From positions 6,749 to 30,110 of the forward strand of contig UZAE01012888.1 in assembly GCA_900617975.1 (NCBI GenBank): a stretch of 23,362 bases of DNA. The letters run 5' to 3'. The notes beneath the pieces are model-generated. The model was not told where the DNA came from. It saw only the letters and a list, made by a program, of their open reading frames with translations, and ran no database searches. Positions 3,162 through 23,348 of this stretch are shown one piece after another. The number at the start of each line of letters is the position of its first letter. Positions within the stretch are counted from its first letter, which is position 1. The translations under genes and the position numbers were made by a program. This DNA comes from Rodentolepis nana. Taxonomy: Eukaryota > Platyhelminthes > Cestoda > Cyclophyllidea > Hymenolepididae.

Positions 3162-3486
3162 TATTTATTTATTTCAGGTCTCAGGCGTTTTGATAGTCAT
3201 CATTAGCCCTTTAGCTGACTTCAGACTTCATGGAAGGGAGGAACATCAAAGTGACAATAAGTCGAGGAGAGGAACAGAAGTGTGATTCACAGATGTAAAA
3301 GAGACAGACAGACACAAAGGCAGAGAAAAAAGGCAAGGTGAGCGCTGTGGAAGTGGTGGAATATGACATACAGTGGGTCATGGTAGATTGATGTCAGAAG
3401 TCAACCGCCGGTGAATGGACTTTTTTGCCGTATGAGTGTACTTTACCCAGGATACACCAAGTAGAGGTAAGCCTATTGCACATCCC
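3162..3486 (-). mobile_element. SINE copy 1 (family with LINE-type 3' tail)
   Basis: On the minus strand it starts GGGATGTGCAATAGGCTTAC and ends in an ATAAATAAAT-type tail at 3162. Flanks AGAATTGTAAAATT (3148-3161) and AGAGTTTTAAAATT (3487-3500) match at 12 of 14 positions, a target-site duplication. All family landmarks are present in order: 5' domain, TGACTTCTGA, the CTGTATGTCATATTC block, a pyrimidine-rich middle, and the tail GAAGTCAGCTAAAGGGCTAA. On the plus strand it offers a splice acceptor (TTTATTTCAG, exon start 3178) and donor (GAG|GTAAGC at 3467). Confidence 0.85.
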
Positions 3487-4887: not shown

Positions 4888-6004
4888 GCATTGAATGGAA
4901 AATACTTTAGAATTAGATTAATCATTGATCACGACTATCTTCTCTGTACTAAGATATGCTAATTAAGGAGAGCGTAAGAATCGCCTTTATGATTTATCTA
5001 GTGAAATCAACTATCCTAACAATTTAAGATCGGCACTCAAACGTAACTACGCATAAACTAACAAAGTCATACTTTCGCGCCTTTTCGCCTCTCTAAAGCT
5101 TGACTATAAGAGAATTTGTCAGAGGAATTATATTCAATTGAACTGTCAAGGCCAGTGTTTACTAAAACTTGATTTTTTGAAGCAAACCAATCATATTTTA
5201 ACATAGGTATATGCGCTTTCATGGAACGTTGAACTTAGAATCAATTACTTTCCGCGTAAATGGCATGTTTAAGTAGAGAAAACTCCAGGACCCATTCGAT
5301 TTACCTTCAAAAGAATAACAGAGCTTAGAAAAATTTGGAATATTGGCCTTCAACAAGGGATAGTAAGTAAAATGTTGTTGCATTTCAACCAACATACATT
5401 GCTAAAATAAAGTACAGTTGTGATTGAACCTTATATGCACTAATTTGATCATTTTACATTTGTTACAATGCTTGGTTGCAAAATAAGCATCTTGACCTGT
5501 AAAAACCATCCTTTCCATGATTAAGGTAGTCTGGCAATCTGATTGGCCAATTTTAACCAATTACGTAACAAAATAAGCCAGTACGGTGCTCTTCTCATTA
5601 AATTAGGGTATTTAACGAAAAACGATAAGGCATAAATTAATATTTCATGTTTTTTCAACGAAATAATAAGGGAACAGATGATTTCATGGGAAATTCAAAT
5701 TCTAGTTGATATTGTGAGCCTCTTTTCAGAGGCTAAAATTTGAAGCTAATTTCGAGAAAAAATGTGGCATATTTATAAGAAAAGAAGTATGGAAGAAAAC
5801 AGCTAATCTTACATAGCTAGATGCTTTTTCGCGGAAATTGTATAAGCAGCGCAAATTATGTGCAAATATTGGAATTCGATACAATAAGTGTCGAAATAAG
5901 TGCACTTACAAACTTAATAACGAAAAAAAGTGAAATACAAAAGCAAATTTTATTTGCAATTCATATCTATTTTCTATTAATCAAAGCATAGTTAAGCTCA
6001 ATTT
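4888..6004. other. AT-rich intron-like stretch left of the carrier exon
   Basis: Begins the first intron of the carrier gene (donor GTAAGT at 6010-6005, minus strand). Holds a perfect 7-bp hairpin at 5717-5734 (AGCCTCT, loop TTTC, AGAGGCT). No carrier-domain exon with the PxDxxK/R signature was found. Confidence 0.6.
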
Positions 6005-6010
6005 ACTTAC

Positions 6011-6572
6011 CACCAGCCACAAGAGTTCGCCACGCTTCTCCAGATTTCTTTTCTTCCTCTGTATAATCATCAGGAACTTGCACCAATTCGCCAATATCCA
6101 CAGCCGACGCCCGCCTCCAGTAGTGAAATATATCCTCAAGTCGGGTCTTACCAGAGAGTATAAGGAAATCTCTCCATTCATTGAAATCAATACTAGAAGA
6201 TGCATCTTGATCAACCCTTTTCAACAGTCTTTCTGCTTCTTTGAGAGAAATTTCTACACCGAGTTCCCGCATTTGAGCTTGAATTTCTGAGGCGTCAACT
6301 ACATTGTCCTGATTTTTATCCATTTGACGAAATGCCAGTTTAAGTTGAGTTTCTGTATCTGTAATATAGTCCACAAATTCCTGAAAGGTCATAGTAGTTC
6401 GACTTTCACTACGACCAATGATTTCCGCTGCAGTTGAATCCTTTTCAGCATTATTGATTCTGGAGGCTAGCTCAGCGACACTAACTCGACCATCTTTGTC
6501 GACATCTAACTCTTTGAAAAGTTTGGAAATACGTTCACGATCCTCTGATTTGAGGTTTGATTTCTCTGGCAT
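6011..6572 (-). CDS. Calcium-binding mitochondrial carrier (SCaMC type), first coding exon with the EF-hand domain
   Basis: 187 codons plus one base from ATG at 6572-6570, the only ATG in frame; the frame stays open upstream but only to a GTG. The product is the cytosol-facing calcium sensor of an ATP-Mg/phosphate carrier of the inner mitochondrial membrane. EF1 loop is at residues 23-34 (DVDKDGRVSVAE, canonical). EF2, about 54-65, has lost its Asp ligands. EF3 is at 85-96 (DKNQDNVVDASE) and EF4 at 121-132 (DQDASSSIDFNE, Ser in place of the usual central Asp/Gly). Then come NEWRDFL and the linker PDDYTEEEKKSG before LVAGG, where vertebrate SCaMCs run into the first carrier helix. The donor G|GTAAGT at 6010 splits the Gly codon (phase 1). 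Length and order match the SLC25A23/24/25 N-terminal domain. The six-helix carrier part is missing from the window. Confidence 0.93.
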
Positions 6573-6720
6573 CGATGAGTTAATTCTGACTCCAAGGTAA
6601 AACCACGGCTTAGTAACGCGTGTGCGCACGTACCTGGCCCTGCTGACTAGCGTAGAGCCTTTATGTAGCAGGGTTAGTGCCTTTCCGTTAATTGGTTCAG
6701 TTGACTAAACGGCAGCAAAA
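6573..6720 (-). promoter_or_regulatory. Probable 5' UTR and promoter-proximal region of the carrier gene
   Basis: CpG-containing stretch (ACGCGT, GTGCGCAC near 6616-6630), unlike the AT-rich surroundings, directly upstream of the carrier ATG. An AG|GTACGT on the minus strand near 6632 could be a donor of a non-coding exon or chance. No TATA box is evident. Role inferred from position. Confidence 0.4.
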
Positions 6721-6896: not shown

Positions 6897-7197
6897 GGGG
6901 TGTGCGATAGACTTACTTCCACGTGGTACACCCTGGGCAACGTATTCACATACGGCAAAAAATTCTATTAACCAGCAGTTGACTTCTCACCTCAAACTAC
7001 CATGACCCGACTGTATGTGATATTCGACCCCTTCCGCAGTACTCATCTTACCTTTTCTCTGCCTTGGTGTCTATCTGCCCCTTTTCAATCTTTGAATCAC
7101 TCTTCTGTTTCCTCTCCACTTTTTCACACTTTGAAACCCGAAGTCAGCTAAAGGGCTAATGATAAGTATCGTAAAGCCCAACATTCGAAATATATAA
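6897..7197 (+). mobile_element. SINE copy 2
   Basis: Sense strand starts GGGGTGTGCGATAGACTTAC and ends AAACCCGAAGTCAGCTAAAG followed by GGCTAATGATAAGTATCG and an ATATATAA tail. Flanks ATATTTACACCAT (6884-6896) and ATATTAATACCAT (7198-7210) match at 11 of 13 positions. It lies between the divergent carrier and AMDHD1 starts. The CGTAT/ATACG hairpin is kept but the 3' arm of the outer stem is mutated. Confidence 0.87.
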
Positions 7198-10335: not shown

Positions 10336-10638
10336 TTATTTATCTCAACTGACAGGCGTTTTGATAGTTATCATTAGCCTTTTAGCTGACTTCGGGCTTC
10401 ACAGAGGGGAGGAGGAACACCAAAGTCACAAAAAGTCGAGGGGTTGGGCGAATAATGATTCGCAGATGTTAAAGAGACAGACAGACACAAATGCAGAAAA
10501 AAGGTGAGATGAGTACTATGGAGGTGGTCGGATATGACATACACTGGAGTCCTAGTAATTTGAAATGAGGAGTCAACTGCCAGAATGGGTATACGTTGTC
10601 CAGGATGCCCACATAGAGATAAGTCTATCGTACGCCCC
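10336..10638 (-). mobile_element. SINE copy 3, internally deleted
   Basis: Minus-strand start GGGGCGTACGATAGACTTAT; tail GAAGCCCGAAGTCAGCTAAA near 10386-10405. Flanks TAGTTCCTACCAT (10323-10335) and TAGTTCATACCAT (10639-10651) match at 12 of 13 positions. About 20 bases that hold the 3' arm of the outer stem are missing. The antisense splice donor found in the other copies is lost here (GAGATAAG). Confidence 0.86.
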
Positions 10639-15396: not shown

Positions 15397-15411
15397 TGAT
15401 GTTGTATGATA
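15397..15411. repeat. Target-site duplication of the LINE copy, left side
   Basis: TGATGTTGTATGATA; partner at 15767-15781 differs at one base. Confidence 0.8.
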
Positions 15412-15766
15412 ATAAATATAATTGCAAAGGGTAGGCTATATGATATTTATCATTAACCTCTTAGTTGGCTTCAGCTTTCCCCACGGTTCATTAGTTCATT
15501 AGTTGTATTATGGCTTCCCAGTATCTCTGGGTTTCCGTCGTTGTCTTTAGGACTGGACACCCAATCAGGTGGGTCTTCTCCATTTCTTCCTGTAGGTTAC
15601 ATGGGGGCATGTGGGTTGAGTGCATACTCCCAATCTGTGAAGGTGTTTTGTCAAACAATCGTGTTTGGTACGTATTCTAAACTCAGCAACGGCTTCGATT
15701 CTTGGCCAGTCGGGTATGTCGGAGAGTGCCGCTGTCCACTGTTTCTCCTTTGACTTCTAATTATTA
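15412..15766 (-). mobile_element. 5'-truncated LINE (Jockey-like non-LTR retrotransposon), 3' end only
   Basis: A 355-base insertion bounded by TGATGTTGTATGATA (15397-15411) and TGATGTTATATGATA (15767-15781), a target-site duplication identical at 14 of 15 positions. On the minus strand it holds the last roughly 85 codons of a LINE ORF2 and then a short 3' UTR. About 12 bases after the stop the UTR becomes the tail of the SINE family: GAAGCCAACTAAGAGGTTAA, then TGATAAATATCAT and GCCTACC. Strong 5' truncation is typical of target-primed reverse transcription. Confidence 0.8.
15491..15756 (-). pseudogene. LINE ORF2 C-terminal relic, frameshifted
   Basis: From 15756 the minus strand reads codons containing WPRIEAVAEFRIRTKHDCL and TKHLHRLGVCTQPTCP. 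Near 15601-15604 one base is missing. The adjacent frame continues CNLQEEMEKTHLIGCPVLK, then TQRYWEA, and stops at TAA 15493-15491. HDCLxKHLHRxGV and the CxxC...HxxxC zinc-type cluster are typical of the region after reverse transcriptase/RNase H in arthropod Jockey-like elements. The 5' limit is the truncation, and an in-frame TAG lies just before 15756. Not functional. Confidence 0.78.
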
Positions 15767-15781
15767 TGATGTTATATGATA
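15767..15781. repeat. Target-site duplication of the LINE copy, right side
   Basis: TGATGTTATATGATA; partner at 15397-15411. Confidence 0.8.
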
Positions 15782-16420: not shown

Positions 16421-16814
16421 CGGGGTGTGGGATAGACTTACCTCCTCGTGGTGCACCCCGGTCAACGTATAATCATACGACAAAAAAGTCTATTAACCGG
16501 CAGTTAACTTCTGACGTCAAACTACCATGGCCCGACAGCTTGTCATATTCGACCCCTTTCACAGTACTCATCTTACCCTTATTTTCGACCCCTACCACAG
16601 TATTCATCTTACCCTTTCTGAGCTCCCTACCACAGTACTCATCTTACCCTTTCTGAGCCTTTGTGCCTGTTTCTTTTACATCTGTGAATCAATCTTCTGT
16701 TCTCCCTCCCAAATTCTTTTCATTTTGATGTTTCTTCTCCCCTCTGTGAAGCCCGAAGTCAACTAAAGGGCTAATGATAGCTATCAAAACGCCTGCCGTT
16801 TGATATAAATAAAT
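16421..16814 (+). mobile_element. SINE copy 4, with internal triplication
   Basis: Starts CGGGGTGTGGGATAGACTTA and ends in GATATAAATAAATA. Flanks AAGCGTCTATATG (16408-16420) and AAGTGTCTATATG (16815-16827) match at 12 of 13. Outer stem ATAGACTT/AAGTCTAT and inner CGTAT/ATACG are both intact. It is about 70 bases longer than its relatives because a 35-36-base unit is present three times (16548-16660). Tail GAAGCCCGAAGTCAACTAAA is well preserved. Confidence 0.9.
16548..16660 (+). repeat. Tandem triplication inside SINE copy 4
   Basis: Three units of 35-36 bases built on TACCACAGTACTCATCTTAC and CCTTTC; other copies carry one unit. The second and third units share changes (TACCACAG, CTTTCTGAGC) not seen in the first. 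Confidence 0.8.
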
Positions 16815-20330: not shown

Positions 20331-20656
20331 TTATTTATTTATTTCAAATGGCAGGCGTTATGATAGGTATCATCAGCCCTTTAGTTGACTTCGGGCTTCA
20401 CAGGAAGGAAGAGGAACATCAAAGTGGCAAAAAGTCGAGAGGGGGACAGAATAATGATTCACAGACGTAAAAGAGACAGACAGACACAAAGGTAGAAAAA
20501 AGATGAGGTGAGTACTGTGAAATTAGTCGAATATGACATACAGTGGGGTGATGGTGGTTTGAAGTCAAAAGTCAACTGTCGGTTTATAGGCTTTTTGCCG
20601 TATGAGTATACGTTGTCCAGGGTGCACCACGTGGAGGTAAGTCTGTCGCACACCCC
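20331..20656 (-). mobile_element. SINE copy 5
   Basis: Minus strand starts GGGGTGTGCGACAGACTTAC and ends in an AAATAAATAAATAA tail at 20331. Flanks AAAAATTACTTAT (20318-20330) and ACAAATTACTTAT (20657-20669) match at 12 of 13. Antisense to AMDHD1, it presents on the plus strand an acceptor-like TTTCAAATGGCAG|G (20354/20355) and a consensus donor GAG|GTAAGT (20636/20637), 282 bases apart. Confidence 0.9.
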
Positions 20657-23021: not shown

Positions 23022-23348
23022 GGGGTGTGCGATAGACTTACCTCCACGTGGTGCACTCGGGGCAGCGTATATTCATACGCCAAAAAGTCTATTAACTGGC
23101 AGTTGACTTCAGACTAAAAACTACCATCACCCCACTGTATGTCGAATTCGACTACTTCAACCGTACTCACCTCACCTTTTTTCCAACTTTGTGTCTGTCT
23201 CTTATACATCTTTGAAACACTCTTCTGTCCCCCCCCCATCTCGACCTTTTCCCTTTGATGTTCCTCCCCATCTGTGAAGCCTGAAGTCAACTAAAGAGCT
23301 AATGATAACTATCAAAACGCCTACCATTTGATATAAATAAATAAATAA
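23022..23348 (+). mobile_element. SINE copy 6
   Basis: Starts GGGGTGTGCGATAGACTTAC and ends CCATTTGATATAAATAAATA plus further ATAA units. Flanks ATATTAAATTTAA (23009-23021) and ATATTATATTTAA (23349-23361) match at 12 of 13, so the copy is complete just before the window ends. The outer stem and inner hairpin are intact. A run of nine C near 23229-23237 lies in the pyrimidine-rich middle. Confidence 0.9.

Follow-up and report, generated by a model that had tools for sequence, protein, structure and literature searches.

What moves the short repeats that recur along this piece of the Rodentolepis nana genome, and which enzyme do they depend on? The window, by which we mean the whole 23,362-nucleotide stretch that was analysed, holds six copies of a repeat resembling a short interspersed element (SINE) and one 5′-truncated fragment of a long interspersed element (LINE), with the features collected in Table 1. 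A preliminary description had proposed that the tail of the SINE is the 3′ UTR of this LINE, which it called Jockey-like, and hence that the two are partners. In stringent-type LINE/SINE tail pairs, such as UnaL2/UnaSINE1 and similar ones, the head of the SINE is Pol III–derived, and the question is whether the present pair is of that kind. The LINE has its sense on the minus strand, running from 15752 to 15421; 3′ of its stop codon TAA the sense strand continues to GAAGCCAACTAAGAGGTTAATGATAAATATCATATAGCCTACC and ends near 15421. On both sides of the fragment lies a target-site duplication of 15 nt, its two copies differing at one position (equalled in 1 of 300 shuffles); the fragment is therefore most likely a true 5′-truncated insertion. 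Another 14 nucleotides (15753-15766, minus strand), perhaps gained during insertion, separate the 5′ duplication from the LINE homology. In the 107-Mb assembly—where totals from DNA searches are lower bounds or extrapolations from the matches listed—long matches to the fragment are 82–93% identical. Many of them reach further 5′, most LINE copies being longer on that side than the one in the window, and they end in GAAGCTGAAGTCAAAGTTTAAGGGCTAATGATAAATATCATAAAGCCTGCCATTTGAAATAAATAAA or a variant of it, beyond which the flanks are unrelated.

Table 1. Positions in the window of the LINE fragment, the SINE/SIDE copies, their tails and their predicted ribozyme heads.
Feature	Position	Strand	Basis or remark
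LINE 3′ fragment (ORF end and 3′ UTR), 5′-truncated	15421..15752	-	genome matches
LINE ORF stop codon TAA	15491..15493	-	
Tail common to LINE 3′ end and SINEs	15421..15479	-	alignments
TGATAAATATCAT, core of possible tail hairpin	15440..15452	-	predicted fold, no better than shuffles
3′ target-site duplication TATCATACAACATCA of LINE fragment	15397..15411	-	
5′ target-site duplication TATCATATAACATCA of LINE fragment	15767..15781	-	
SINE/SIDE copy	3168..3486	-	80.7% to consensus
SINE/SIDE copy	6897..7192	+	76.3% to consensus
SINE/SIDE copy	10339..10638	-	74.5%; degenerate head without Rfam match at E ≤ 1
SINE/SIDE copy	16422..16809	+	extra internal repeats
SINE/SIDE copy	20338..20656	-	85.9%; 11-nt target-site duplication
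SINE/SIDE copy	23022..23337	+	94.7%; nearest to consensus in the window
SINE tail homologous to LINE tail	3174..3230	-	
SINE tail homologous to LINE tail	7132..7188	+	
SINE tail homologous to LINE tail	10345..10401	-	
SINE tail homologous to LINE tail	16747..16803	+	
SINE tail homologous to LINE tail	20344..20400	-	
SINE tail homologous to LINE tail	23275..23331	+	
Predicted HDV-like ribozyme head	3415..3486	-	weak match, 25.4 bits, E 0.57
Predicted HDV-like ribozyme head	6897..6968	+	37.7 bits, E 7.9e-4
Predicted HDV-like ribozyme head	16422..16493	+	RF02682, 39.9 bits, E 2.4e-4, cut-off 44
Predicted HDV-like ribozyme head	20586..20654	-	35.8 bits, E 0.0022
Predicted HDV-like ribozyme head	23024..23092	+	weak match, 27.8 bits, E 0.16

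The tail of the SINE is a genuine LINE 3′ end, as the preliminary description had it. The 20-mer GAAGTCAACTAAAGGGCTAA of the SINE has six matches in the window, none with more than two mismatches (three were allowed), as against 0.01 expected. The exact strings said to be present in every SINE copy are rarer: TGATAGCTATCA is present in 1/6 (the copy at 16422-16809) and GCCTGCC in 2/6. The LINE comprises an older and a younger subfamily, both of which carry the tail. Aligned locally, the SINE consensus scores 94 with the younger tail, with 69/82 columns identical (best of 500 shuffles, 29), and with the older tail 98, with 81/98 columns identical (best of 500 shuffles, 31), the latter match starting at ATGTTCC. 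An earlier set of LINE copies had the tail core in 19/20, the exception (L052) continuing into a second LINE copy that has the tail. Since the query used for that set itself held the tail, the test was repeated with coding sequence only: at least 40 places were listed, the 3′ ends of 20 previously unfetched ones were retrieved, and the tail was found on 20/20. In every copy its score exceeded that of all 100 shuffles of that copy, and no flank resembled another. There was thus no LINE copy without the tail among the 20 fetched of the at least 40 coding-sequence matches listed, and a chance SINE fragment adjoining the LINE is ruled out.

Which of the two subfamilies provided the tail is suggested by the length of the match. 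The longer stretch shared with the older tail (81/98 rather than 69/82 columns) suggests that the tail of the SINE came from the older LINE lineage; the tail of the LINE fragment in the window scores 78 against the older tail, 71 against the younger tail and 51 against the SINE. The 20 older 3′ ends were fetched after a search with an older copy, and three of them (L093, L100 and L103), which look young, were excluded from the older consensus. The older subfamily (L084-L103) has the tail motif twice in tandem, the upstream copy overlapping the last ORF codons and the stop; the two are 35/44 identical in the consensus, with 0/1000 shuffles equally good, and the repeat is significant against its own shuffles in 18/20 older copies, L100 and L103 being the exceptions. 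Tandem repeats of the tail motif also end some SINE copies (L020, copy at 2750; G000:C3830), and look as if reverse transcription had restarted on the tail.

The hairpin that had been proposed for the tail core (TGATA...TATCA) stands only in part. The same hairpin is predicted in the LINE and in the SINE, but the folding energies of four tails lie within those of shuffles (z −1.00 to +0.32). Changes in its pairs likewise reveal no covariation above the shuffle control in the 42-row tail alignment, which combines younger LINE tails (20 with the window included, from which L046, L051, L054 and L057 were left out), 20 older tails and the six window SINEs. We therefore dropped the idea that the hairpin is proven by energy or covariation, neither of which exceeds shuffles.

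Identity between SINE and LINE is not confined to the tail, which is where we depart from the preliminary description, in which such confinement was to support the partnership. The first ~90 nt of the SINE also match the 5′ end of the LINE, with 83/96 columns identical and a local score of 126 (at most 29 in 300 shuffles), in an alignment that stops shortly 5′ of the first LINE ATG. This head was first met at the LINE 5′ end of L051, where an ORF ~30 nt downstream leads into the endonuclease. When the LINE sequence that follows the head was used as query, at least 40 places were listed, and in the 20 that were fetched (L059-L078), together with L051, the LINE 5′ end starts with the ribozyme-like head in 21/21. 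L043, considered as a ribozyme fused to a LINE 3′ part, was set aside in view of a single N at the junction.

What kind of sequence is this shared head? The Rfam family RF02682 (HDV-F-prausnitzii) matches 5/6 of the SINE heads in the window with 25.4–39.9 bits, all below the curated cut-off of 44, and among 20 SINE loci three matches exceed this cut-off (44.3–44.5 bits). The LINE heads match Rfam at E ≤ 0.05 in 15/20 fetched sources (best 40.2 bits, all below 44), with no match at that threshold for L061, L069, L074, L077 and L078, whereas RF00094, the family of HDV itself, reaches at most 37.5 bits against a cut-off of 50. In an alignment of 62 heads—41 from SINEs and 21 from LINEs, with L011:2308-2387 and L036:1499-1578 left out of 42 SINE heads and the window copy at 16422 added—P1 (1-7/32-38) opens with a G-U pair, and P2, P3, P1.1 and P4 can form. 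Paired cells make up 94.2% of 1585, as against 36–50% when the partners are slid, a contrast that is partly circular in that the structure was itself designed around these heads. The J4/2 position taken as the catalytic cytosine, which we take to be the equivalent of C75 of HDV, is C in 56/62 heads. One near-complete LINE copy, L059, in which head and tail are both present and the target-site duplication is a perfect one of 13 bp, has A there, and its ribozyme is probably dead.

In the paired positions of the head, the main differences between LINE and SINE (U-G to C-G at 7-32 and G-U to G-C at 10-75) are both one-sided, a single pair is changed on both sides, and covariation does not exceed shuffles (94.2% of cells paired vs 94.3%) because the copies are much alike; compensatory changes were thus discarded as an argument. 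Pseudoknot-free folding of the two heads that were tried is indistinct from shuffles (z −1.19 and +0.40). With covariation absent and plain folding uninformative, what identifies the head as a predicted ribozyme is its Rfam score, its agreement with the known core and the location of the 5′ end. These same features bear on whether the head might be an internal promoter only, similar to Pr77, whose likeness to HDV is incidental or nonfunctional in most copies. That the majority sequence keeps all HDV-like elements (P1, P1.1, P2, P3, P4 and the J4/2 C), that the element begins where cleavage is predicted and that three matches lie above the curated Rfam score makes this unlikely in our view, even though the predicted catalytic C is lost in 6/62 heads, covariation is lacking, and the corresponding 77 nt of trypanosomatids serve as promoter and ribozyme alike (PMC4035085).

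The position of the head is informative, as the ribozyme match begins at SINE nucleotide 1 and this end is nearly fixed. A target-site duplication scoring at least 9 was found for 30/39 end-to-end SINE copies, compared with 1/39 when the downstream flanks were shuffled; 22 of these 30 duplications abut nucleotide 1, and the other eight are 1–3 nt off (3 being the maximum offset searched). In the loci that were chosen for their LINEs, there are 14 body-bearing SINE copies that extend to the 3′ end, of which 11 begin at nucleotides 1–3 and the remaining three at nucleotides 4, 46 and 143, and the LINE copies of the same loci break at varied points, some of them ended by contig ends or N. A nearly fixed 5′ end is what would be expected if the ends were made by a ribozyme whose cleavage is predicted. 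Over their 98,304 bases the same loci contain 20 body-bearing SINE copies, which corresponds to ~200 per Mb and perhaps to ~20,000 copies in 107 Mb, a rough extrapolation from a small sample near LINEs. The family looks recent, judging by two copies that are 99.4% identical to the consensus. The copy at 16422-16809 (plus strand) is longer than the others owing to additional near-repeats of the CACAGTACTCATCTTACCC unit.

Between its two shared ends, ~90 nt on the 5′ side and ~60–85 nt on the 3′ side, the ~320-nt element has a middle of its own. The part of it that was compared (140 of ~165 nt) gave only matches of 9–13 nt, with E ≥ 0.93, to L051, L059, L079 and L080, in a comparison that covered the LINE incompletely, with the interiors of the old subfamily outside it. 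Since the middle is unmatched in the fetched LINE parts, a simple internal deletion probably does not explain the whole element. The direction of transfer could in principle be the reverse, the SINE having supplied the ends of the LINE, or a third element those of both. This would agree with the unmatched middle in the parts compared and with the far greater abundance of the SINE-type head, exact 47-nt versions of which number 1258 in the genome vs 53 of the LINE type (reversed control, 0 for each), but both LINE subfamilies carry the tail, and the older of them matches the SINE over the greater length, which is what a branching of the SINE from that older LINE would produce; we consider the reverse direction highly improbable.

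If the SINE did derive its ends from the LINE, is it nevertheless an ordinary Pol III SINE whose head, with an internal promoter, is of tRNA or 5S type and that is mobilised through a borrowed LINE tail? A tRNA-, 7SL- or 5S-derived head with an internal promoter was found neither by pattern search nor by ARAGORN or Rfam: pattern search shows neither an A nor a B box in the consensus, ARAGORN detects no tRNA in the window, and the tRNA, 7SL and 5S-type Rfam families have no match to the window SINEs at E ≤ 1. A tRNA-derived head was thus rejected. The consensus also contains runs of six, four and five T, with T6 at 157, and such internal T4-T6 runs should terminate transcription by Pol III. A size of ~320 nt, the high copy number, the target-site duplications, the (ATAA)n at the 3′ end and the shared tail would all suit a Pol III SINE; the head, LINE-like and ribozyme-like, does not, and so this explanation is very unlikely. 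What is found instead, by sequence and Rfam score, is a predicted 5′ ribozyme and a 3′ end that are both common to the partner LINE. Eickbush and Eickbush set the elements of this type that they describe apart from SINEs, as those are no Pol III transcripts, and call them SIDEs, for short internally deleted elements (PMC3414825). We thus keep the partnership between LINE and SINE, for which the shared tail makes it the best reading, and replace the ordinary SINE: with a probability of roughly 0.8, the repeats of the window are SIDE-type non-autonomous retrotransposons that parasitise the LINE represented at 15421-15752 and carry both of its ends. The genome has other reverse transcriptase genes (150 matches scored), which counts against the assignment of this LINE as the partner, the SINE tail having been compared with the 3′ ends of the two subfamilies of this LINE only.

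The shared ends, which are found together in one genome, suggest how such a SIDE might move. Its RNA would be made by read-through within a longer, probably Pol II, transcript, from which the predicted ribozyme would cut itself 5′ of nucleotide 1, freeing the exact 5′ end of the element. The reverse transcriptase of the LINE would then recognise the shared tail and use target-primed reverse transcription to copy the RNA at staggered cuts, which would leave the target-site duplications, mostly of 10–15 bp, that flank the copies.

The class to which the LINE had been assigned is uncertain. Its endonuclease domain (PF14529, 46.9 bits), reverse transcriptase domain (PF00078, 129.3 bits) and RNase H domain (PF00075, 66.3 bits) were found in L059, L079 and L055, respectively, so that the domain layout is assembled from separate copies. 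An APE endonuclease and a reverse transcriptase, here in different copies, are features of the Jockey clade. To our knowledge, Jockey-clade elements have no RNase H, and because RNase H is present in one LINE copy the label Jockey-like is doubtful. A LINE that has a 5′ ribozyme as well as APE, reverse transcriptase and RNase H instead follows the I/Ingi-type (L1Tc-like) pattern, a comparison of layout only. The solved chains closest to the reverse transcriptase part are those of 8c8j, the LINE-1 ORF2 protein, R2 proteins being more distant in the PDB, and searches of NCBIfam and the PDB returned nothing beyond generic relatives of reverse transcriptase, endonuclease and RNase H.

SIDEs are a known kind of element, and several systems can be set beside this one. 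Ruminski et al. (2011) reportedly described 5′ HDV-like ribozymes in animal retrotransposons. As in UnaL2/UnaSINE1, LINE and SINE have a 3′ tail in common, with a possible hairpin and then a short repeat, but unlike in that pair, whose SINE has a Pol III–derived head, the head is also that of the LINE. Close counterparts are the R2 SIDEs (PMC3414825), which are non-autonomous and combine a 5′ HDV-like ribozyme with the 3′ end of the partner LINE. Those SIDEs are rare in Drosophila and lie in rDNA, at R2/R1 sites (PMC3414825), whereas the present element is dispersed and has a SINE-like copy number; it further differs from them by its ~165-nt middle matching no fetched LINE part and by a partner with RNase H. 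SIDEs with HDV-like ribozymes are by contrast widespread in trypanosomatids, where L1Tc/NARTc, ingi/RIME and the SIDERs resemble our pair in two respects (PMC4035085): AP endonuclease, reverse transcriptase and RNase H are all encoded by the LINE, which has a 77-nt 5′ HDV-like ribozyme in common with its short non-autonomous partners. These are elements of protists for which a promoter role of Pr77 is known, and the likeness is considered here at the level of layout. Metazoan retrozymes, too, are non-LTR elements that are small, non-autonomous and equipped with a self-cleaving ribozyme, which in our case is predicted, but they are characterised by hammerheads and circular RNAs (PMC7761336), unlike the single predicted 5′ HDV-type ribozyme here. 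In other animal retrotransposons, a 5′ HDV-like ribozyme is thought to release the RNA from a co-transcript (PMC8256844).

What may be new is a dispersed, SINE-scale example in an animal with an RNase H–bearing LINE as partner. In the open-licence literature, judged largely by titles and abstracts, we found no description of such an animal SIDE and no case of a ribozyme-bearing SIDE in a flatworm. A broader idea, which we advance tentatively and at slightly less than even odds, is that promoterless, ribozyme-defined short elements can reach SINE scale in an animal genome by means of both ends of a LINE: the ribozyme would excise them from host transcripts and the tail would recruit the LINE enzyme, so that definition of the 5′ end by a ribozyme would take the place of the Pol III promoter. 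A young and abundant pair that shares both ends makes it testable which minimal ends the LINE enzyme requires, and whether a ribozyme can stand in for a Pol III promoter in building a family of SINE scale. The thousands of potential cutters per genome also have relevance for host RNA processing.

Two observations on coding sequence were made along the way. The minus strand of the window has an open frame of 233 aa at 6003-6704, which presumably resembles the EF-hand part of a mitochondrial ATP-Mg/phosphate carrier, and some of the window SINEs may sit in introns of this carrier-like gene. The COX1 of the assembly (L083), which presumably resembles that of tapeworms, points to a flatworm, as it reads in the flatworm/echinoderm mitochondrial code, with AGR where Ser fits and TGA within the frame, and AAA stands at the Asn of its DRN motif, a residue that we take to be conserved.
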